From Phycisphaerales bacterium (lineage in GTDB: Bacteria > Planctomycetota > Phycisphaerae > Sedimentisphaerales > Anaerobacaceae): DNA of 39,368 nt. How positions within the stretch are numbered: the stretch's first letter is position 1; every line of letters begins with the position of its first letter. The stretch covers positions 1 through 39,368 of the forward strand of contig PLLM01000083.1 in NCBI GenBank assembly GCA_003141275.1. Reading direction: 5' to 3'. The position numbers and the translations under genes are program-made. The notes below the pieces were generated by a model. It searched no databases. It was not told the DNA's origin and was given only the letters and a program-made list of their open reading frames with translations. Below, in pieces: positions 28,542-38,998 of this stretch.

Positions 28542-28650
28542 GTCGGTTGGCAGGCCGGATAAACCGTATCATTCGGATTAAATCCCTTTCTGCCGCTATG
28601 GCTCTTTTCTCCCGCGTTTTCAGTTAACTAGCCCGGTTTATTTGCCGATA

Positions 28651-28663
28651 CGTCAAATTGACG
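28651..28663. promoter_or_regulatory. 13-bp palindrome upstream of the PEGA protein gene
   Basis: CGTCAAATTGACG is a perfect 6-bp inverted repeat around one base. Its right half forms TTGACG, which is 17 bp from TATGGG (28681-28686), so it could be an operator overlapping a -35 element. The -10 match is weak. Confidence 0.35.
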
Positions 28664-28695
28664 ATAAAAGCTTACTGTTTTATGGGGGCTGTAAA

Positions 28696-30339
28696 ATGCA
28701 GAAGATTCGTAATACGCACAATTCATTGGTTGTGATTGGTTTAGCCGCAATGTTTGTTTTACCTTCAACTGCTTATGCTGCGAAGCATTATTTGGAGGTG
28801 ACTTCCTATCCGCCGGGTGCGACGGTCGCAGTTGACGGCGAAACAAGGAGTAAAATTACACCTATGAAGGTTTTGTTACATGAGGGAGAGCACACGGTGA
28901 CAGTAGCTTACCCCGGTTATGGCTGGGAGCCGAATACGCAAACAATAACTATGGATGGTAAGCATCGTAATTATCTTGACGTTAATCTGTTGCCGGTTCT
29001 TACAACGGGTCCGCAGGGTGAACAAGGCCCGCAAGGCGAAAAAGGCGATACAGGCGATACCGGTCTTCAAGGCCCGCAAGGGATACAAGGAGCTACTGGA
29101 GCAACGGGGGCAACAGGAGCTACAGGCCCGCAAGGTCCTAAGGGCGATACCGGTGTATCATGGCAGACAGTTACAGGCACAAGCCAGCAGGCTGCGTCCA
29201 GCAAGGGATACGTAGCGAATAATACCTCACAGGTCACTATTACTCTGCCGGCTTCGCCGACTGCTGCTGACATAGTTCGTGTGGCGGGCTTTGGCATCGG
29301 CGGCTGGGAAATCGCCCAGAATGCCGGCCAAGTTGTGCTTACGAAAAATATCGGTGGAACTGGAACAGGGGGGTATTATTGGGTCGCGCGAGACAGCAGC
29401 CGGAATTGGTATTCTGTTGCGTCATCGTCGGACGGAACTAAACTGGTAGCTGCAGTTTATGCAGGCGGTCAAATATATACATCTATAGATTCAGGCGAGA
29501 CCTGGACGGCGCGAGACAGCAACCGGGATTGGCGTTCTGTTGCCTCTTCGTCGGACGGGACCAAATTAGTCGCTGGGGTGTGGGACGGTCAGATTTACAC
29601 CTCGACTGATTCCGGTGTAAACTGGACGGCGCGAGCCAGCAGCCGGATTTGGCATGGCATCGCATCATCATCCGACGGGACCAAACTTGTCGCTGCGGCA
29701 TATAACGGCCAGATTTATACCTCGACGGATTCCGGCGCCAACTGGACGGCCAGAGACAGCAGCCGGCATTGGTGGCGCGTTGCCTCATCGTCGGACGGGA
29801 CCAAATTAGTCGCAGTTGTGGATGACGGCCAGATTTATACCTCGACTGATTCCGGTGAGACCTGGACGCCGAGAGACAGCGACCGGAGCTGGTATTCCGT
29901 TGCTTCGTCGTCGGACGGGACCAAATTAGTCGCTGTGGTGTGGGACGGTCAGATTTACACTTCGGCGGATTCCGGTGCAAACTGGACGCCGAGAGACAGC
30001 AATCGGACTTGGGTTTCCGTTACCTCGTCGTCGGACGGGACCAAACTGGCCGCGGGGCTAAATGGGGGTAATATTTACACCTCAACGGATTCCGGCGTAA
30101 CATGGACGGTTGCGCCAGGCAGCAGCGGGAGTTGGTGGTTTTCCATTGCCTGCTCGTCGGACGGGGGCAAATTAGTCGCTGGGGTGCTTGGGGGTCAGAT
30201 TTATACCTCTATCCCGACTACTACACCGGGCACGGGAGGTTATCTGACTGGCGATTCGGACGCGGCTATCGAGCTTCAATACCTCGGCAGCAGCCAGTGG
30301 CGTGTGCTTAGCCACGAGGGTACTATTTCGGCGTATTGA
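28696..30339 (+). CDS. Secreted PEGA / collagen-like / beta-propeller protein
   Basis: The product is 547 residues. The ATG at 28696 is chosen because a signal peptide (1-28, ending STAYA) begins there and GGGGG lies upstream; a TTG 18 codons earlier is also in frame. A PEGA domain (about 29-100; [24 protein letters not shown]) is followed by 16 uninterrupted collagen-type Gly-X-Y triplets (105-152; [16 protein letters not shown], then four GAT). A small beta domain begins (153-217; [19 protein letters not shown] … [11 protein letters not shown]) and seems to resume at the C-terminus ([20 protein letters not shown]). Between lie seven repeats of 40 residues, each with SSDGTKLVA and [10 protein letters not shown], resembling BNR/propeller blades. 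A surface or extracellular adhesin is likely. Close similarity among the repeats suggests recent expansion. Confidence 0.85.
29386..30210 (+). repeat. Seven tandem ~120-bp coding repeats
   Basis: Units begin near 29386 and 29509, then every 120 bp to about 30109. The first is 123 bp and the last is shorter and more diverged. The word TCGGACGGGACCAAA recurs at exact 120-bp steps (29551, 29671 with one change, 29791, 29911, 30031). High nucleotide identity makes the array prone to unit gain or loss and to assembly error. Confidence 0.88.
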
Positions 30340-30354
30340 GAAAGAACCGGGTTA

Positions 30355-31317
30355 TCAGCTGACCTGTCTTCTCTGGAATAGGGCCACCGCTAAAGCCAGT
30401 ATCCCGCCCGTATAGCAAATCGCGTATGTTGCGCCTATGAGGACATATTTGAGGGGCACTGTGCTTTCCTCATAAATTGCGTCGCTTATCCAGAAGACCT
30501 GAAGGTTAGGAATGGCAAAATAGCATATTTTCGCCCAGAGGTGTGTTTTGGCCAATGCACCGAACGCCCAGTCCGAGACAAGCCCCAAAAGGAAAACACC
30601 CACACACGCCGAGAGGGTTACCACTATATTGAACCTGCACGATAGCGCAACCGCCAAGGCCGCGATTATGACAGCCGCCATAAACAGCAGAATTGAGCCG
30701 TAAATATCAATTGCGTTAATATTGTTATTAGCAGGATTGAACTTCCAGTCGCGGTCGAAGAATATCAGGAAAATCAGCGCAATTGTGCCCAAACCAGCCA
30801 GTAAAACAACAGCCGTTGATGTGGCTTTCCAATCATAACTATAGTTTAAAAAAGCACTTAGAAGACAAGTCAGCACCACGATAACCCCAGCGGTTACTAA
30901 TACGGTATAGTCATTGGTCGAATCCGCGTTTTCGAGAACGCCGTTCCTTATCGCCATTATCAGTGCTATCGTGCAGATGTAATGGGCCATAGCCACCGCT
31001 CCGGTAACCCCCAGGAATTTGGCCAAAATGAATATTGGACGCTGCACCGGCTTAGTGAGAACGGTCATTATCGTCTTATTCTCGATTTCCTCCGCCACCG
31101 CCCCGGAAGCCGAGAAAATTGCTATGAACAAGCTGGCTATGAAAAGCGTAGATAAACCCAATTCGCGTAACAGCTTATTGTCATCACTCATTGTGTACAT
31201 TGAGATTGACGGGCTGATGAAAAACGACATCAGGGCGGCGATGATTATTATCGCATAGACCGGCTGACGAATGGTCTCTACAAAGGTATTTTTTGTTATT
31301 GTAAATAACTTAGTCAT
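30355..31317 (-). CDS. ABC-2 type transporter permease
   Basis: This 320-residue inner-membrane protein has about six to seven hydrophobic segments. The N-terminus TKLFTITKNTFVETIRQPVYAII and the motif AEEIENKTIMTVLTKPVQRPIFILAKFLGV are typical of ABC-2 permeases of the NosY/YhhJ-like group. The ATG at 31317 is preferred over an in-frame TTG seven codons upstream. No ATPase gene adjoins it in the window. The partner may be elsewhere or may be the ATPase at 37787, whose own permease (38991) shares the TVLTKP motif. It converges with the propeller gene, leaving 15 bp between the stops. Confidence 0.88.
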   Translation of the reverse strand: MTKLFTITKNTFVETIRQPVYAIIIIAALMSFFISPSISMYTMSDDNKLLRELGLSTLFIASLFIAIFSASGAVAEEIENKTIMTVLTKPVQRPIFILAKFLGVTGAVAMAHYICTIALIMAIRNGVLENADSTNDYTVLVTAGVIVVLTCLLSAFLNYSYDWKATSTAVVLLAGLGTIALIFLIFFDRDWKFNPANNNINAIDIYGSILLFMAAVIIAALAVALSCRFNIVVTLSACVGVFLLGLVSDWAFGALAKTHLWAKICYFAIPNLQVFWISDAIYEESTVPLKYVLIGATYAICYTGGILALAVALFQRRQVS

Positions 31318-31339
31318 CGTTTGAGACCTTTCCGACAAT

Positions 31340-31359
31340 CGCTGATTTTCAGCGTTTTT
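31340..31359 (+). terminator. Rho-independent terminator facing the HflK operon
   Basis: A 6-bp stem CGCTGA/TCAGCG with a 3-nt loop is followed by TTTTT. It is oriented on the plus strand, with no plus-strand gene ending nearby (the nearest stop is at 30339). It may stop antisense read-through across the permease and insulate the next operon. The 31360-31503 stretch is AT-rich and may hold the operon's promoter, but no convincing box pair was found. Confidence 0.55.
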
Positions 31360-31503
31360 GAGTTTTAGACAACGGTTTTATGGCTAAATTTGGCGATATA
31401 TTCTTATATGACATAAAAACCAGCTTGTAAATAGCCGGGAATTATTATATCTATATGCCCTTTGCGTTTCGGGGTTCGGTACAAAACTTTAGGAATTGAA
31501 TAA

Positions 31504-33567
31504 ATGACAACATCATCAAGACCGGCAAAGCTCGTCGCTATGGTGTCGCTGACTCTCAGCATCATTTTCTTTGTCATTATGGTTCCTCTCGGCCGATGGA
31601 GCGGTTTCGTCGCAATTTATTCCGCAGGTTTTGTTTCGCTTGGCGCAGCGTTAATCTGGCTGGTTTTGCTCATACAGTTCCATCAGCGAAATCTTGCCGA
31701 GCAGGAAAAGCTCGATATGAGCGCCCTTGCCGGCGACCACAGGACGGATAAAATCTTCCATGCCAAGGGCGAGCAGTCGCAGTTGTTCGCCGTCGCTCAA
31801 AAACGCCTTGCGATACTCGAAAAGTGGTTCCTGCCTGTTTTTTCCTTCCTCATCGCGGCGTATCAGGTAGGCATAGGCCTGTATCTGCTGAAAGCCGTCC
31901 CCAATTCGAATCCGGCAATCGGCAAACAACCTCTGCTGTGCGCGGTTTGTATGGTTGCCATCGCCTTTGTCAGCTTCCTGCTCTCGCGTTATGCGACAGG
32001 GATGTCTAATCAGGCGGAATGGAAACCGCTGCGGTCGGGCGGCAGTTTTCTGTTCGGCTCAGCGATATTGTCCTTTGCCTTGGCGATAGCCCTGGCCCTG
32101 GTTCAGTTCAAAATAACCACCGTAATAAGTGTGATTGATTATACTATACCTGTCCTGCTTATCGTCCTTGGCGTCGAGAACCTGCTTAATGTTATATTCG
32201 ACATATACCGGCCTCGCCTGACGGGCCTTTACAGCAGGGCGGCCTTCGACAGCCGGCTGCTGGGGCTCATCAACGAACCGGGTGAAATCCTTCATACCGC
32301 TACCGGCGCAATCGATTACCAGTTCGGCTTCAAGGTTTCTCAGACCTGGTTTTATAAACTCCTCGAAAAAGCCGTTGTGCCGCTGATTTTCTTCGGCGCT
32401 ATTACACTGTATCTGCTCAGCGGCGTTGTTGTTATTAATTCCTATGAACAGGCCGTAATCGAGCGGTTCGGCAACCCGAAAGACGCAAAGGGCGATGTTC
32501 GACTCGTTGGCCCGGGCATCCATTTCAAAATGCCCTGGCCCATCGATATCGCACGGGTATATCCCACCGGCAACATAGAAGAGTTGCAAATCGGCTACGT
32601 GCCCAAGACCGACCCCAAAACCGGGCAGGTAATCCGTGAACCGCTGCTTTGGGGCAAGGACCACTACAAGGAAGAATACAGCATTCTTGTCGCGAGTCGT
32701 CTCGGTGCGGAAAAAAATTCGCCGGGCGCCGCGCCGGTCAGTTTGCTCAAGGCCAATATTCCCGTGCAGTTCAGGGTCAAAGACCTTTATGCCTTCCTTT
32801 ATAATCAGAACGATCCCCAGAAACGGCTTGAGAATATTTGTTACCGCGAACTGGCTAGGTTTGCCGCGGGCGCCTCAATTGAAGTCGATGACGAGGCGGC
32901 CCTGCAGACCAGTTTGCTGGGTGCGGGCAGGGCACAAGCTAAGCAGGTCCTGACGCAGAATATCCAGGCCGCCGCGGACAAGGCCGGTCTTGGAGTCGAG
33001 ATTGTCTTTGTGGGGCTTCAGGGCATACATCCGCCTACCCAGGTCGCCGCTGACTATGAGAAGGTCGTGGGCGCAGTCCAGATAAAGCAGGCCGTAATTC
33101 TTCAGGCCCAGGCCCAGCGTAATCGCACTCTCAGCAATCTCGCCGGTTCGGTCGATGGGGCATCAGACCTTTTCGTCCTGGCCGCTGATTATCAGAAGGC
33201 AAGACAGGAAAATAACCGTCAAAAGACCGACGAAATTGCCGGCCGGCTCGATACCGCGTTCACCCAGGCGGACGGCGACATTTTCTGCACGCTCAGAGAG
33301 GCACAGAGTTACAGCTTTGAAAGGGTCGCTAATGCCCGTTCCACCGGTGAACGATTCGACAGCCAGGTCAAGGCATACAGGGCCGCGCCGGAAATTTACA
33401 AAAAAGAGCAACGCCTCATTGCCCTGGAGGAAACGCTCAGTCCGATACGAAAATATGTTATTGTCGCCGACCCTAATGACGCGGAGACATTTATCGTTGA
33501 CCTTAAAGAAAAATTAACGCCGAGCTTGTATGATATCGGCGGGGTTCAGGAGAGCAGCTCACAATGA
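31504..33567 (+). CDS. hflK: HflK-like SPFH protein with an extra polytopic N-terminal domain
   Basis: The product is 687 residues. HflK normally has one membrane segment and about 400 residues. Here about six hydrophobic segments (roughly 10-30, 34-58, 107-130, 142-162, 179-201, 207-232) precede the usual anchor (290-312). The SPFH/band-7 domain follows: VVINSYEQAVIERFGN, GPGIHFKMPWPIDIARVYPTG, then a C-terminal coiled-coil region (VVGAVQIKQAVILQAQAQRNRTL and on). SPFH proteins form membrane cages; HflK/HflC modulate the FtsH protease. A HflK-specific insert (LQIGYVPKTDPKTGQVIREP) lies near the beta core. The stop overlaps the HflC start by 4 bp (ATGA). No FtsH gene is present in the window. 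Confidence 0.88.
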   Translation: MTTSSRPAKLVAMVSLTLSIIFFVIMVPLGRWSGFVAIYSAGFVSLGAALIWLVLLIQFHQRNLAEQEKLDMSALAGDHRTDKIFHAKGEQSQLFAVAQKRLAILEKWFLPVFSFLIAAYQVGIGLYLLKAVPNSNPAIGKQPLLCAVCMVAIAFVSFLLSRYATGMSNQAEWKPLRSGGSFLFGSAILSFALAIALALVQFKITTVISVIDYTIPVLLIVLGVENLLNVIFDIYRPRLTGLYSRAAFDSRLLGLINEPGEILHTATGAIDYQFGFKVSQTWFYKLLEKAVVPLIFFGAITLYLLSGVVVINSYEQAVIERFGNPKDAKGDVRLVGPGIHFKMPWPIDIARVYPTGNIEELQIGYVPKTDPKTGQVIREPLLWGKDHYKEEYSILVASRLGAEKNSPGAAPVSLLKANIPVQFRVKDLYAFLYNQNDPQKRLENICYRELARFAAGASIEVDDEAALQTSLLGAGRAQAKQVLTQNIQAAADKAGLGVEIVFVGLQGIHPPTQVAADYEKVVGAVQIKQAVILQAQAQRNRTLSNLAGSVDGASDLFVLAADYQKARQENNRQKTDEIAGRLDTAFTQADGDIFCTLREAQSYSFERVANARSTGERFDSQVKAYRAAPEIYKKEQRLIALEETLSPIRKYVIVADPNDAETFIVDLKEKLTPSLYDIGGVQESSSQ

Positions 33568-34457
33568 AAAACGTAACCATAACAATCTTTATCGTTCTGC
33601 TTTTTATCGTTTTGGCGCTGGTCTTTACGATGTTTCAGGTGCGTGAGACCGAATCCGCTCTGGTGCTGACCTTTGGCAAGGCCACTCGCCAGATTACCGA
33701 GCCGGGTTTGTATTTCAAATGGCCTCCGCCCATCGAGTCGGTCCAGAAGTTCGATTCCAGGGCCAGAAACCTTGTTGCAGAAATGGGCGAAACGCCCACG
33801 AAAGGCGCAGTCCCCATTATCGTAAACACGTTTATCGTCTGGCGCATCGCCGAGCCGTTGGCATTTTTCAACGCCGTCGGTACACCTGTGGAAGCCGAGA
33901 GCAAGCTGCTCAGTCAGATAAGCGACACGCAGAACAAGGTCATCGGCCGGCATGAATTCTCCGAATTCGTCAACAGCGACCCCGCGAAGATAAAGTTCGA
34001 TGACATCGAGAAAGAGATGCTTGCCGAGATTCAGAAGGCCGTGCGCAGCGACTACGGCATCGAAATCAAATCGCTCGGCATAAGGCAGCTTAAAATCAGC
34101 GAAGACGTCAGCAAGGCGGTATTCGAGCGGATGAAAGCCGAGCGGAACCGCATGACCGAGGGAACAATCGCCGAGGGCGCCGCCGCCTCCAAGAAAATCG
34201 TTACTGATGCCCTTTCAATGCAGACCGAATTGCTTGCGGCAGCCGAGGCAAGGGCCAAGGCCATCCGTGCGCAGGGTGACGCTGAAGCCGCTCAATATTA
34301 CAAATTACTCGAACAGGACCCGCAGCTCGCTATGTTCCTGCGGGACATCGACGCCCTCAAGAAAATACTCGAACAAAGGTCAACGGTCGTTATCAGCGCG
34401 GACACCGAACCATTCAAGCTGCTCAGGCAGATGCCCGACCTGAAACCTAAAGATTAA
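33564..34457 (+). CDS. hflC: HflC-like SPFH protein
   Basis: The product is 297 residues with a single N-terminal membrane segment (6-24) and the band-7 domain TESALVLTFGKATRQITEPGLYFKWPPPIESVQKFDSR (given in two parts: ESALVLTFGKATRQI and GLYFKWPPPIESVQ). GRHEFSEFVNSDP and YGIEIKSLGIRQLKISEDV, followed by the alternating Ala/Glu helix (ERNRMTEGTIAEG, AAAEARAKAIRAQGDAEA), are classic HflC features. Length and motifs are normal. HflC pairs with HflK to form a large periplasmic cage around FtsH. It overlaps the preceding hflK by 4 bp and is 32 bp before a second HflK-like gene. Confidence 0.93.
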   Translation: MKNVTITIFIVLLFIVLALVFTMFQVRETESALVLTFGKATRQITEPGLYFKWPPPIESVQKFDSRARNLVAEMGETPTKGAVPIIVNTFIVWRIAEPLAFFNAVGTPVEAESKLLSQISDTQNKVIGRHEFSEFVNSDPAKIKFDDIEKEMLAEIQKAVRSDYGIEIKSLGIRQLKISEDVSKAVFERMKAERNRMTEGTIAEGAAASKKIVTDALSMQTELLAAAEARAKAIRAQGDAEAAQYYKLLEQDPQLAMFLRDIDALKKILEQRSTVVISADTEPFKLLRQMPDLKPKD

Positions 34458-34489: not shown

Positions 34490-35785
34490 ATGACGGAAGA
34501 ACACGAACACAATCACGCGACCACCGACGTTGCCGGCCAGCCGCGGCAGGCAGACCCCGGCTATGACTATTTGTCGGGGGCCTTGAAGGTCAGCTTTGCC
34601 GTCCTCAAGGTCATAATGGTCGTCCTGCTTGTGCTCTTTCTATTCTCCGGTGTCACCAAAGTAGGCCCCGGCGAACGCGCGATTGTCCTGTGGTTCGGCA
34701 AAATCAGCGGCGTCGGCGAGGCACGTCTTCTCGGCCCGGGTCTGAAACTACTTTTGCCGTACCCAATACACGAAATCGTCCGGATTCCCGTAGAGAGAAA
34801 GGTTAACCTGGCGATAAATTCATTCTGGTATTATCAAAAGCCCGGCGAGGAAATGGGCGATGCGGCCAACGAAAAAACATACGCGCCGCCTACTCTCAAC
34901 CCTCTTACCGATGGATATTGTCTTGTGAGGGGCGAAAAGCAGGCACAGACCGCAGCCGCTTCCGAAGGCAGCGATTATAACATCCTCCATTGCAAGTGGG
35001 TTCTGACCTACCAGATTACCGACGCGGAAAGATTCTACAAGCACTGTTACGTACACGATAGTCACCTCCAGGCCGGGCAGAACTACTCGGACGTCATAGA
35101 GCAAAGCATAAATCCGCTGCTGGAAAATCTGTTCACCGACGCCGTCGTCGTAACTATGGTCAATTACACCATCGAAGAGGCGATGTTTGAAAAGGTCTCT
35201 TCCGTTTCCGAGCGGGTCAAAGAACGCCTCCAGAATAAGCTCAACGTATTGGAAACGGGCATTAAAGTCGTCTCGGTTCAAACCCGTGACATAACCTGGC
35301 CCAGGCAGGTATCCGCCGCCTTCCAGGCGTCTCTGACCGCGACACAAAACAAGCAAAAGGTAATCAGCGACGCGAAACTTGCTTCGGAGAGGATTCTCAA
35401 CGAGACCGCCGGTCCCGTTGCGGCTGAGCTTCTTGGGTCTCTGCGTGACAGTTCCACCGGCAGGCAAAAACAGGAGCAGTTGTGGGAACGGGCGGCCGGC
35501 AGGGCACAAGAGACAATTGCCAATGCCCGCGGGTATAAAACGCAGGTTGTCGAGTCGGCAAGGGCAGATGCTGAGTACCTCAAAAGTATTCTTCCCGAAT
35601 ATCGAAAACACCCGAAACTCGTCATCCAGAGGGTCTATCAGGACGCGATTGAGCAGGTACTTCGCGACGCGGAAGAGAAAATGGTCATTCAGCCCGCGCA
35701 ACACGGTAAAAGCACCGAAGTCAGGGTACTCATCAACAGGGACCCTGCGATAAAACCAAAATCCGAACCCGGAAAACAACCTTAG
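34490..35785 (+). CDS. hflK: Second HflK-like SPFH protein
   Basis: The product is 431 residues. The cytoplasmic N-terminus carries a His/Glu cluster (MTEEHEHNHATTD), followed by one membrane segment (about 34-57) and a band-7 domain (VGPGERAIVLWFGKISGVG … LGPGLKLLLPYPIHEIVRIPV). A HflK-type region VSVQTRDITWPRQVSAAFQAS and an Ala-rich helix (RAQETIANARGYKTQVVESARADAEYLKSI) follow. An insert rich in P, T and N (EEMGDAANEKTYAPPTLNPLTDG) is unlike standard HflK. It is the third SPFH gene in a row, so a three-component cage is possible. It is followed 23 bp later by the metal ATPase. Confidence 0.85.
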   Translation: MTEEHEHNHATTDVAGQPRQADPGYDYLSGALKVSFAVLKVIMVVLLVLFLFSGVTKVGPGERAIVLWFGKISGVGEARLLGPGLKLLLPYPIHEIVRIPVERKVNLAINSFWYYQKPGEEMGDAANEKTYAPPTLNPLTDGYCLVRGEKQAQTAAASEGSDYNILHCKWVLTYQITDAERFYKHCYVHDSHLQAGQNYSDVIEQSINPLLENLFTDAVVVTMVNYTIEEAMFEKVSSVSERVKERLQNKLNVLETGIKVVSVQTRDITWPRQVSAAFQASLTATQNKQKVISDAKLASERILNETAGPVAAELLGSLRDSSTGRQKQEQLWERAAGRAQETIANARGYKTQVVESARADAEYLKSILPEYRKHPKLVIQRVYQDAIEQVLRDAEEKMVIQPAQHGKSTEVRVLINRDPAIKPKSEPGKQP

Positions 35786-35808: not shown

Positions 35809-37752
35809 ATGGCTCACGAACATCTGCATTTTAAGCAAGATATCGCCGTTGAGCACACGCACGGTAAACAGGTCCGTGTCAGCTTGGCCCTGCTGGGGAC
35901 GCTGGCAGGGGGGACGTTGCTGCTTACGAGCATCATAGGTGAATCCAGGTTTATTTACGGAGCCGGCAGTTTCCAGACCGAAACCCTTGCCTTGGTGGGA
36001 GCTCTGCTGCTGGGCATTCCTATCATCTGGCACGCAATTAAAAGTTTGCTGCATCAAGAGGCACATATGGATGAGCTTGTGGCGCTGGCCATAATTGCCG
36101 CCATAGCCACGCAGCAATACGTCGCCGCAGGCACCGTTGCCTTCTTTATGCTTCTTAGCGAGTTGGTCGAAAGCCGGACCGCGCTCGGCGCAAGGGCCTC
36201 GATAGAATCGCTCATAAAACTCACTCCTCAAAAGGCAAATCAACTGCATCCTGACGGTTCCGAAACGGAAGTGATGGTCAGCCAGATTAAACCCGGCGAT
36301 ACAGTGCGCGTAAGACCCGGCGACAATATTCCCGTCGATGGCGACGTAGTAAAGGGTTTAAGCTCCGTCAACGAGGCCACAATCACCGGTGAATCGCTGC
36401 CCGCTGACAAGGTCCCCGGTATGCAGGTCTTCGCGGGCACAAACAACCTCACCGGCGCTCTCGATATCACCGTTACCAAGGCCGGCAAAGATACCACGCT
36501 CGGCAAGGTCCAGTCGCTGATTCTGCAGGCCGAGCATACCAAGATACCCATTATGCGGATTATTGACCGCTACGTTAGATGGTACACCCCGACCGTCCTG
36601 ATGATTGCAGGTATTGCCTTGTTCTTCACAGGCAATATCAACATCGCCATCACCATTCTCGTAATTGGCTGTCCCTGTGCGCTGATTCTGGCGACGCCCA
36701 GCGCGATGGTCGCGGCAATATCCGCCGCCGCCCGCTTAGGCATACTTGTCAAGAATGTTGCCGACCTCGAGGAAGCAGGCAAAATCACCGCGATGGTTTT
36801 CGACAAGACGGGCACGCTAACGACCGGCCGGCTGTATGTTACAAAGCTCACTCCCGCAAATGGCGTTGAGCCGTCAACACTGCTTTCGCTGGCCTCATCC
36901 GCTGAAAAAATGAGCAAACACCCAGCGGCAAGGGCGCTGCTCGAAGTCGCAAAACAGGCCAATCTTGTTTTGCCCGAAGCGGATAATTTCCAGGAAACCC
37001 CCGGCAAAGGCGTTATCGCCAAAGTCGCCGGCAGCCGGGTAATCGTCGGCAGAGAGTCGTTCCTTAAGGAAAACAAAGTCGATATGTCCAATGTCTCCTC
37101 GCCGTCTTTGCACGAGGAGCAGGGCTTCAGCACACTATACGTCGCTTTGGATAACCATTGTGTTGGCTGGGTCGGCCTTCAGGATAAAACCAGGCCTGAG
37201 GCGAAAGAAGCCGTAAAAGACCTTTTTGCACTTGGCGTCAAGAGAGTAACAATGCTCACGGGCGACAGAGATGAAGTCGCCGGCCGCGTCGCAGCGGAAC
37301 TCGGCTGCACCGATTACAAGGCGCATTGCCTGCCGCAGGACAAACTTGCCATAGTCGAAAAAATCAAAAAAGACGGCTACACCGTCCTTGTCGTAGGCGA
37401 CGGCATAAACGACGCCCCCGCGCTTGCCGCCGGCGACCTCGGTATCGCGATGGGCGCTGCCGGCTCAGATGTCGCCATTAACTCCGCTTCTATAGCCCTG
37501 TTAAGCGACGACCTCAAACGACTTCCCGCACTGGTCCAGTTGTCTCGCAAAACGCGATTTGTTATCAACTCGAACCTCGCCTTTGGTATCAGCTTTATTA
37601 TTGTGGGCTGGTCAATCGCGTTGACTGGTTTGATTGTGCCGACCTTGGCGGCGTTCCTGCATTTCGCGGGTTCACTCATTGTCGTCTTCAATAGCGCCCG
37701 GTTGGTTCGCCACGGCGAAGAGCTCCCGCACCATACGGGCGACGTTACGTAA
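35809..37752 (+). CDS. P1B-type heavy-metal-translocating ATPase
   Basis: This 647-residue inner-membrane pump has all P-type motifs: TGES (193-196), the CPC metal site (288-290), DKTGT with phosphorylated Asp332, the HP pair of P1B pumps (371-372) and GDGIND (530-535). No HMA domain is present. Instead the N-terminus is His-rich (MAHEHLHF … VEHTHGK), as in some zinc/cobalt or copper pumps. The last membrane helix reads FLHFAGSLIVVFNSARL, with no acidic residue in the 'H-(D/E)-G' position used by many Zn/Cd/Co pumps, so the metal is uncertain. The gene sits in an operon with three SPFH genes upstream and an ABC exporter downstream (34 bp). Confidence 0.93.
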   Translation: MAHEHLHFKQDIAVEHTHGKQVRVSLALLGTLAGGTLLLTSIIGESRFIYGAGSFQTETLALVGALLLGIPIIWHAIKSLLHQEAHMDELVALAIIAAIATQQYVAAGTVAFFMLLSELVESRTALGARASIESLIKLTPQKANQLHPDGSETEVMVSQIKPGDTVRVRPGDNIPVDGDVVKGLSSVNEATITGESLPADKVPGMQVFAGTNNLTGALDITVTKAGKDTTLGKVQSLILQAEHTKIPIMRIIDRYVRWYTPTVLMIAGIALFFTGNINIAITILVIGCPCALILATPSAMVAAISAAARLGILVKNVADLEEAGKITAMVFDKTGTLTTGRLYVTKLTPANGVEPSTLLSLASSAEKMSKHPAARALLEVAKQANLVLPEADNFQETPGKGVIAKVAGSRVIVGRESFLKENKVDMSNVSSPSLHEEQGFSTLYVALDNHCVGWVGLQDKTRPEAKEAVKDLFALGVKRVTMLTGDRDEVAGRVAAELGCTDYKAHCLPQDKLAIVEKIKKDGYTVLVVGDGINDAPALAAGDLGIAMGAAGSDVAINSASIALLSDDLKRLPALVQLSRKTRFVINSNLAFGISFIIVGWSIALTGLIVPTLAAFLHFAGSLIVVFNSARLVRHGEELPHHTGDVT

Positions 37753-37786: not shown

Positions 37787-38998
37787 ATGGAATATGCGAT
37801 TGAAACGTTTTCTTTGACCAAAATCTTCTCCGACTGGTGGGGACGCAACAGGGTCGTCGCCGTCGATGACCTCAACTTGAAGGTTCGTACCAATGAGGTC
37901 TTCGGTTTCCTGGGCCCGAACGGCTCAGGCAAAACAACCACGCTCAAAATGCTCCTCGGTCTGCTTCACCCCACAAAAGGAAAGACCCTCGTCCTCGAAG
38001 GCGACGCCACCGACCCTCAAATCAGCCGCAGAATCGGTTTTCTGCCGGAAGAATCCTATCTTTATAAATATCTCACGGCCCGCGAAACGCTCGACTTTTA
38101 CGGCCAGTTGTTCAAGCTGCCTGCACGAGTCCGAAAGATGCGTATCGAGGCGCTGCTCGATATGGTAGGCCTCAAGGCCGTCGCCAATAGGACCGTTGGG
38201 ACCTTCTCGAAGGGTATGGCAAGGAGAATCGGGCTTGCGCAGGCCCTCATAAATGACCCTGAGCTGCTCATTCTCGACGAACCAACCACGGGGCTTGACC
38301 CCCTCGGAACAAGACAAATCAAAGACCTTATCATAGAACTCGCCAAACGCGGCAAAACAGTTGTGCTTTGCAGCCACCTGCTCGCTGACGTCGAGGACGT
38401 CTGCGACAGAATCGCGATTCTCTACGGCGGCAGGATTCAGGCCGAAGGCAGCGTCCGCGACCTCCTGCGACATTCCGACAAAACCGAAATTACAACCGGA
38501 CGCCTCAGCCCGGCGGCGCTTGAAAAAATAAAACAAATACTGGCTGAGGAACGCGCAGAATACACCATTGGTTCGCCGTTGGACAAGCTCGAAACGTTCT
38601 TTATCAATATCGTCGCCAGGGCGCAGCAGCAGGCCGTCCCAACAAGCGGAGCCGAAAGCAAGACCCAGATTAGCGAATTTCTCTCCGCCAAAACCGACGA
38701 ACGTGCCCGCAGGGAGGCCATACTCAACCAGCTTGTTTCCGCGTCCCCATCGGATGAGCAGGCGGCGGCTACCGACACTCAGAATGTCCGGCCGCAACCA
38801 GCGACTCCGACCGACGAAAACCTGCTCAACCGGCTGACCGAGCAAGTCGATTCAAAACCCGTTACTACGCAGCCGACGAAGGCCAAACCTGAACCCGCGA
38901 AATCCGACCAGCCGGACAAAAGCATCCTCGACGAATTAACAGGCCGGCCTTCGCCGGACAAAAAGAACGCCCATCCCGGAGATTCCGCCAATGCGTAG
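37787..38998 (+). CDS. ABC transporter ATP-binding protein with long C-terminal tail
   Basis: The product is 403 residues. The nucleotide-binding domain covers about 1-235: Walker A GPNGSGKTT (43-51), Q-loop region GFLPEESYLY, signature FSKGM (140-144) in place of the usual LSGGQ, Walker B LLILDEPTTGLDP (160-172) and switch His197. Residues about 236-275 resemble a common C-terminal extension of DrrA-type ATPases. The last 120 residues are rich in Pro, Thr, Gln, Ala and Lys and are probably disordered. Its stop overlaps the next permease gene by 8 bp, so the two form an exporter. The substrate is unknown. Confidence 0.9.
   Translation: MEYAIETFSLTKIFSDWWGRNRVVAVDDLNLKVRTNEVFGFLGPNGSGKTTTLKMLLGLLHPTKGKTLVLEGDATDPQISRRIGFLPEESYLYKYLTARETLDFYGQLFKLPARVRKMRIEALLDMVGLKAVANRTVGTFSKGMARRIGLAQALINDPELLILDEPTTGLDPLGTRQIKDLIIELAKRGKTVVLCSHLLADVEDVCDRIAILYGGRIQAEGSVRDLLRHSDKTEITTGRLSPAALEKIKQILAEERAEYTIGSPLDKLETFFINIVARAQQQAVPTSGAESKTQISEFLSAKTDERARREAILNQLVSASPSDEQAAATDTQNVRPQPATPTDENLLNRLTEQVDSKPVTTQPTKAKPEPAKSDQPDKSILDELTGRPSPDKKNAHPGDSANA

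Follow-up and report, generated by a model that had tools for sequence, protein, structure and literature searches.

Analysis of the window, the whole 39,368-nucleotide stretch of DNA taken from a contig of a Phycisphaerales bacterium, revealed on the forward strand a long HflK-like SPFH gene with an ATG start (31504..33567), encoding a protein of 687 aa (P0001). A Kyte-Doolittle hydropathy scan (19-residue window, mean of at least 1.4) placed hydrophobic segments at residues 10-28, 41-59, 110-128, 143-161, 182-200 and 204-222, followed by the SPFH anchor at 293-311, so that reading frame and scan together bear out the initial annotation, which had described six additional membrane segments ahead of an HflK-type anchor in a protein of this length. 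Along the same strand the gene encodes a six-helix domain of predicted CDF fold that lacks the CDF metal site (31516..32223, residues ~5-240, assigned from a predicted model and a profile match), a conserved linker (32209..32373, residues 236-290, YRPR...DSRLLG...DYQFGFKVSxTWFY) that was delimited from alignments and has low pLDDT in the models, the SPFH membrane anchor as the seventh segment (32374..32439, residues 291-312, by hydropathy), and an HflK-type SPFH (Band_7) domain with C-terminal helices (32440..33567), recognised by Pfam, NCBIfam, PDB and structure matches. The single anchor of HflK is thus replaced by seven segments, a number found in the N-terminal part of 78 of the 80 sequences of one alignment that includes P0001 (A1; eight segments in one sequence, six in another) and, with the same scan, in 30 of the 36 sequences of a more diverse alignment (A2; six segments in the other 6).

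A domain search, proposed earlier as a check of the extra segments, returned Band_7 (PF01145) as the only Pfam family in P0001, with 57.3 bits against a cut-off of 23.6 and the best stretch at residues 419-538. Residues 1-309 gave no match in Pfam and no sequence match in the PDB, and a single weak model in NCBIfam (CusA/CzcA family, E 0.033). The full protein reached 85.4 bits with the hflK model TIGR01933, under the cut-off of 159.4, and in the PDB its residues 588-653 and 588-656, in the C-terminal part, matched chains of E. coli HflK.

The long gene is followed on the forward strand by an HflC-like gene (33564..34457, 297 aa; TIGR01932 139.9 bits, above the cut-off of 134.4), whose start (ATG) and the stop of the long gene form a 4-base overlap, by a second HflK-like gene (34490..35785, 431 aa; TIGR01933 128.7 bits, cut-off 159.4), by a P1B-type heavy-metal ATPase (35809..37752, 647 aa) and by an ABC exporter ATPase (37787..38998, 403 aa), with gaps of 32, 23 and 34 bases between these successive neighbours. 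Both ATPases were assigned by family matches, and the P1B-type enzyme carries DKTGT, TGES, CPC and GDGIND, which were spotted by eye in the translation and which we take to be P-type ATPase motifs. Upstream and divergent lies an ABC-2 type permease gene (30355..31338, reverse strand; Pfam ABC2_membrane_5, 25.2 bits, cut-off 25), which many planctomycetes have at the conserved locus as well, and a second ABC-2 permease follows the ABC ATPase beyond the window (L151). In this genome the second permease (L151 2992-4292, G000:C8) appears as two frames, one on either side of an undetermined base (X), and relatives have intact copies. Further upstream in the window, a 565-aa reading frame (28642-30339, forward strand) contains collagen-like Gly-X-Y repeats together with BNR-like 'SSDGTKLVA...YTSTDSG' repeats, as read by eye. 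In the region preceding the long gene (31330-31506), an alignment of 8 loci shows a conserved GTAAA element and a conserved GTTC element, and 47 of the 79 upstream regions contain the 8-mer CTTTACAA or its complement. A scan of these regions for palindromes, as a sign of Zur control, gave no Zur box and no excess (8 of 79, compared with 12.2 in shuffles in which letters were shuffled singly).

Using residues 1-309 as the query against genome contigs yielded 79 distinct loci among the best 80 of 109 matches, the records of which are titled as planctomycete with the exception of two labelled 'uncultured bacterium'. All 79 loci encode a full-length protein of 665-739 aa, with reading frames counted from the first start, and since they had been fetched with the N-terminal part alone, the fused architecture is not due to chance. 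A profile built from 36 N-domains (A3) matched 80 of the 392 phylum genomes and 183 of the 248 class genomes; among the 194 class genomes with a completeness of 90% or more and a contamination of no more than 5%, it matched 160. Every one of the 46 genomes of the organism's own order among those listed, its own included, matched this profile; the 20 listed class genomes lacking a match belong to other orders, and 45 more non-matching genomes lie beyond those listed. A query with the whole protein recovered 16 further loci with divergent long proteins (567-762 aa), which mostly escape the N-domain profile in genome searches. The search for the domain as a separate gene, also suggested by the initial annotation, gave no stand-alone copy among the matches listed for the 392 phylum and 248 class genomes. 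Three candidates for such a copy (G397, G388, G500) were rejected as short frames stopping at contig ends, and apparent N-domain pieces were found to be split over two frames (G171, G107) or over two contigs (G111). Within its lineage, the long fusion is the usual form of this protein.

Neighbouring genes were counted by BLASTP matches of at least 40 bits to the proteins of the window, at loci with room on the contig. At the close loci, HflC was present in 73 of 73, HflK in 70 of 70, the P1B ATPase in 60 of 60 and the upstream permease in 64 of 64 cases. The 20 distant planctomycete loci retained HflC (20/20), HflK (18/19), the P1B ATPase (12/18, 6 of the 12 lying upstream), the ABC ATPase (15/18) and the upstream permease (15/17), and the 16 divergent loci retained HflC (15/15), HflK (13/14) and the P1B ATPase (9/10), with the ABC ATPase in 0/3 and the upstream permease in 1/15. 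The lasting core of the set is the order long HflK, HflC, HflK and P1B ATPase.

The same order, namely a protease modulator HflK, two SPFH/HflC/HflK genes and a P-type ATPase, is annotated on plasmids of Burkholderia ubonensis, Paraburkholderia sprentiae, Rhizobium tumorigenes and Klebsiella aerogenes, where the HflK proteins measure 631, 606, 672 and 568 aa, respectively. A profile of the whole long protein matched all five plasmid proteins compared (L213, L214, L215, L217, L218), spanning from the N-domain into the SPFH part, and the N-domain profile alone reached one of the five (L218, E 0.00076). By sequence, the N-domains of the plasmid proteins can thus be tied weakly to that of the window. 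On the Paraburkholderia plasmid, a zinc ABC transporter and a copper chaperone are encoded close to the four-gene set. The Klebsiella aerogenes set (L217), from a mulberry sample, lies on a plasmid typed as conjugative (pYD-K10_1), with a Tn3-family transposase ~2.4 kb downstream, and the Burkholderia long gene, compared with E. coli genomes, gave no DNA match.

A phylogenetic tree separated 36 cluster-linked ATPases, those of the plasmids included, from 17 unlinked ones by one branch with an SH-aLRT support of 100. When the labels were shuffled, 14.7 changes were required on average, and 0 of 500 shuffles needed as few as observed. The unlinked enzymes were drawn from planctomycetes that also carry the cluster and scored above the TIGR01525 cut-off, lower matches being excluded, and the ATPase of L210, a fragment of 282 aa, was left out of the tree. 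Six unlinked ATPases were added later to the first 17, of which five fell outside the linked group and one (L251) inside it with a support of 94. This last one (G130:C198) is a P1B ATPase of the linked group with no SPFH match within its 18 kb, in a genome that has a linked ATPase as well.

Structure prediction with AlphaFold2 from 80 sequences gave a mean pLDDT of 77.7 and a pTM of 0.44 for the whole protein, and of 75.9 and 0.71, respectively, for residues 1-312. As expected from the presence of the SPFH part in the model, the first 19 matches of the whole-model structure search were chains of HflK, HflC, stomatin, erlin and QmcA, and the next family was that of the CDF zinc transporters (YiiP, ZnT). 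A separate structural aligner superposed YiiP 8f6k_B over 202 residues (Z 20.5, rmsd 2.6, model residues 2..239). The model of the domain alone recovered 8f6k_B with the same Z of 20.5, and its top 31 rows were all CDFs with Z values from 20.5 to 9.1, the first non-CDF row being a ferritin with a Z of 8.4. Foldseek, run on the domain alone, returned a best E of 0.045 at a probability of 1.00 and no hit at or below 0.001. The structural match to the CDFs stops near model residue 240, where the anchor and the SPFH part follow in place of the CDF C-terminal domain.

Profile comparison with hhalign of the 36 N-domains against 18 CDFs from relatives of the organism's own genome gave a collinear alignment over 195 columns with a probability of 90.9% (E 1.2e-6, for one comparison). 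With the same profile, control comparisons remained at 0.6% for reversed CDFs, 0.1-0.4% for ABC-2 permeases and 0.15% for reversed permeases, and across all alignments tried the controls stayed at or below 0.8%. The outcome varied with the alignment used: narrow N-domain alignments reached 11-27% against the CDFs, all 55 N-domains pooled reached 45%, and the 19 divergent N-domains (14 planctomycete, 5 plasmid) reached 0.06%. The 55 rows did not include L208 and L211, which belong to the 16 divergent long proteins. Searched singly against Pfam, members matched Cation_efflux most often of all families, albeit weakly (4 of 36, best E 0.0052), and a few unrelated families gave better single E-values (Sensor, 0.00036, one member). 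In P0001 itself Cation_efflux (PF01545) gave no match reaching the cut-off, and a PDB search with A3 alone found no CDF chain. The organism's own genome (G000, assembly 92% complete) has no Cation_efflux match, although such a match is present in 18 of 26 genomes searched, a total that includes G000. Taken together, model and profile indicate that residues ~5-240 likely have the CDF (YiiP/ZnT) fold in the window form and its nearer relatives.

In CDF proteins, the metal site is formed by two ligands in helix 2 and two in helix 5. The helix-2 ligand pair of the CDFs used here aligns with two Asp of YiiP, and in the hhalign alignment the site positions correspond to residues 44 and 48 (helix 2) and 182 and 186 (helix 5) of the N-domain. 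Across the 36 members, none of these positions holds Asp or Glu, and His occurs solely in 9 members at 44 and in 1 at 182. Position 44 is otherwise Gln in 10 members, position 48 is Gly in 27, and the nearby position 41 is Glu in 7. Judged from these alignments, the CDF metal site is absent from the N-domain. Thus, both model and profile describe a domain that is CDF-like rather than a CDF transporter, as it has neither the metal site nor the CDF C-terminal domain nor a match at Pfam level. Strictly conserved positions are found elsewhere: Glu225 in the sixth segment is invariant in the 36 members and in all 55 of the wider alignment, and the linker, one of the protein's most conserved stretches, contains an invariant Gly275 (55/55) and a Trp282 kept in 50 of 55. 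Given six segments ahead of it, the anchor would be expected to leave the linker on the cytoplasmic side and, as in HflK, the SPFH part on the periplasmic side. The initial annotation had suggested a membrane sensor or a platform fused to the SPFH cage; the platform is still the likeliest role, now with a predicted CDF-like fold and the P1B ATPase as a likely partner, while the sensor lost ground, since the loss of the CDF metal site leaves it with no positive evidence.

By gene content and order, the set in the window resembles the published annotation of the hmtA cluster of P. aeruginosa, which comprises PA2439 (HflK family), PA2438 (HflC), PA2437 (HflC family) and, beyond PA2436, PA2435 (HmtA), the last being a P-type ATPase reported as a zinc and copper importer (PMC4542158). 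In both, HflK-, HflC- and HflC-family genes are combined with a P-type metal ATPase in this order, PA2439 being the first gene of the hmtA locus, and the proposed link rests on this likeness in gene content and order. The two differ in that many planctomycete loci add an ABC exporter, and in that a CDF-like domain is not mentioned in the available passages of the Pseudomonas papers. According to these papers, PA2439, PA2438, PA2437 and hmtA are induced 9.0, 10.6, 14.4 and 5.6 fold, respectively, in a znuA mutant (PMC4542158), zinc depletion raises the levels of HmtA and the three SPFH proteins, significantly for PA2438 and PA2439 as stated by the authors (PMC11761036), and the three SPFH genes rise along with the zur regulon under N-acetylcysteine treatment (PMC9431628). 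One study reports that zinc-loaded Zur binds and shifts the PA2439 promoter and that added zinc did not repress hmtA mRNA (PMC8531726), and a review states that the import direction of HmtA needs confirmation and excepts hmtA from the Zur targets (PMC10393844). The three SPFH genes have also been named PaFlo5-7, and deletion of PA14_33070-33110 is described as causing slight phenotypes only, including a biofilm reduced by ~20% and attenuated virulence towards an insect host; in that paper 'HmtA' and 'P-type' occur 0 times and 'zinc' once, in 'zinc metalloprotease' (PMC13086221).

With E. coli HflK and the TIGR01933 family, the long protein shares the anchor, the SPFH domain, the C-terminal helices and an HflC-like neighbour, and it differs in its seven membrane segments, its 687 aa and its score below the cut-off. 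With the CDF/SLC30 proteins (YiiP, ZnT) it shares the predicted six-helix fold over ~200 residues and the collinear profile match, and it differs in the lack of a metal site, of the C-terminal domain and of a Pfam-level match, and in its fusion to SPFH. SPFH proteins with a membrane partner are also found in SPFH-NfeD systems other than QmcA-YbbJ, and for QmcA-YbbJ itself such a partner is indicated by the title of the structure. The present case differs from both in that the SPFH chain itself carries the extra membrane domain, for which a different fold is predicted, and in the annotation of the neighbours no NfeD gene was recognised. By their titles, solved SPFH assemblies contain other membrane proteins, including FtsH (7wi3) and an aquaporin (9zd2).

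The conserved set thus brings together three SPFH proteins, the long one with a predicted CDF-like domain, and ATPases that belong to one group, and the clustering of three scaffold genes with a metal pump suggests that the scaffolds serve the pump. Our preferred explanation, which we consider somewhat better than evenly supported, is that the SPFH trio (long HflK, HflC, short HflK) is dedicated to the adjoining P1B ATPase, with the degenerate CDF domain as a membrane platform. On this explanation, the trio would probably form a mixed HflK/C-like periplasmic cage, and the P1B ATPase could, with about an even chance, be the client of this cage. That the CDF-like domain and the linker act as a docking platform seems to us just as evenly poised: the six-helix domain would no longer carry metal and would instead dock or enclose the ATPase, the conserved linker joining it to the cage. 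By analogy with Pseudomonas hmtA, the metal may be zinc or copper, an assignment we make with a little less than even confidence. In favour of the explanation are the CDF match in fold and profile, the conserved gene set with its plasmid counterparts, the branch that groups the linked ATPases, the zinc-related regulation of the Pseudomonas cluster and the solved SPFH assemblies with other membrane proteins. Against it speak the distant loci in which the ATPase is missing or lies upstream, L251, the loss of the CDF match in divergent N-domains, the weak tie to the plasmid N-domains, the pTM of 0.44 for the full model, the slight phenotypes of the PA14_33070-33110 deletion, the hmtA mRNA that zinc did not repress, the reservations of the review and the lack of a palindrome excess upstream. 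A more far-reaching version, which must be considered quite unlikely, envisages a closed periplasmic chamber over the ATPase in which the CDF-fold domains line the enclosed membrane disc; such a chamber might collect or hold metal where the pump faces outwards and set the pump's direction, explaining import by an hmtA-type P1B ATPase.

An alternative is that the trio represents the HflK/HflC of this organism acting on FtsH, with the ATPase merely co-regulated and the N-domain tuning access to FtsH. For the organism's own genome this is a serious rival, because, apart from the cluster, it has a single Band_7 match, in a 357-aa protein on C98, no hflK above the cut-off was found outside the cluster, and FtsH is encoded on another contig; the match of the C-terminal part to E. 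coli HflK chains points the same way. However, in 3 of 15 genomes (G127, G311, G142) a canonical HflK above the family cut-off (270-276 bits) is encoded elsewhere in the genome beside the cluster, so that the long protein is not simply the normal HflK, and FtsH lies outside the cluster, whereas the ATPase is mostly inside it, in planctomycetes as well as on plasmids. The long-HflK cluster is therefore not in general the HflK of these bacteria, and we regard a role centred on FtsH as rather unlikely. The same observations bear on an objection raised with the initial annotation, that the fusion could be the normal HflK form across the phylum with no independent domain family: it is indeed the usual form in its lineage and no stand-alone copy was seen among the matches listed, but canonical HflK coexists with it in those three genomes, and its predicted fold assigns the domain to a superfamily that is already known.

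The remaining alternatives concern the N-domain. In one, which we consider unlikely, the CDF-like domain has remained a transporter or sensor, uses an unusual site (Glu225, sometimes His or Gln at 44) and feeds or gates the ATPase: the invariance of Glu225, the His (9/36) or Gln (10/36) aligned with the first helix-2 ligand, the Glu at the nearby position 41 (7/36) and the missing Cation_efflux match in the own genome would fit such a role, but the lack of any Asp or Glu at 44, 48, 182 and 186 in the 36 members and the absent CDF C-terminal domain argue against it. Conversely, the CDF resemblance could reflect convergence of a six-helix bundle with a role unrelated to metals, in keeping with the Foldseek E of 0.045 for the domain alone and with the divergent members that show no CDF match. 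This, too, we hold to be improbable, as a gap of 12 Z units separates the best CDF row from the first unrelated one (20.5 vs 8.4) and the profile match is collinear, with clean reversed controls.

In the open-licence literature searched (titles, abstract starts and passages), we found no description of a CDF-like domain in SPFH/HflK proteins, and there is apparently no account there that treats the extra domain jointly with its partners. A survey of SPFH proteins from 2009, by our reading of one table row, seems to count no HflK/C (SPFH3) in its three planctomycete genomes (PMC2636767).

SPFH cages are known around FtsH, and a trio tied to one ATPase group in planctomycetes and on proteobacterial plasmids would provide such cages with a defined client. 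A CDF fold without its metal site inside an SPFH protein would be a case of a transporter fold reused as a scaffold. It would also bear on the puzzle of the hmtA pump, whose partners PA2437-PA2439 appear in zinc studies and, under the name PaFlo5-7, in separate work, two views that apparently have not been joined. Should even the chamber hold true, a transporter fold would have become the floor of a cage, and this cage would determine in which direction another transporter works.
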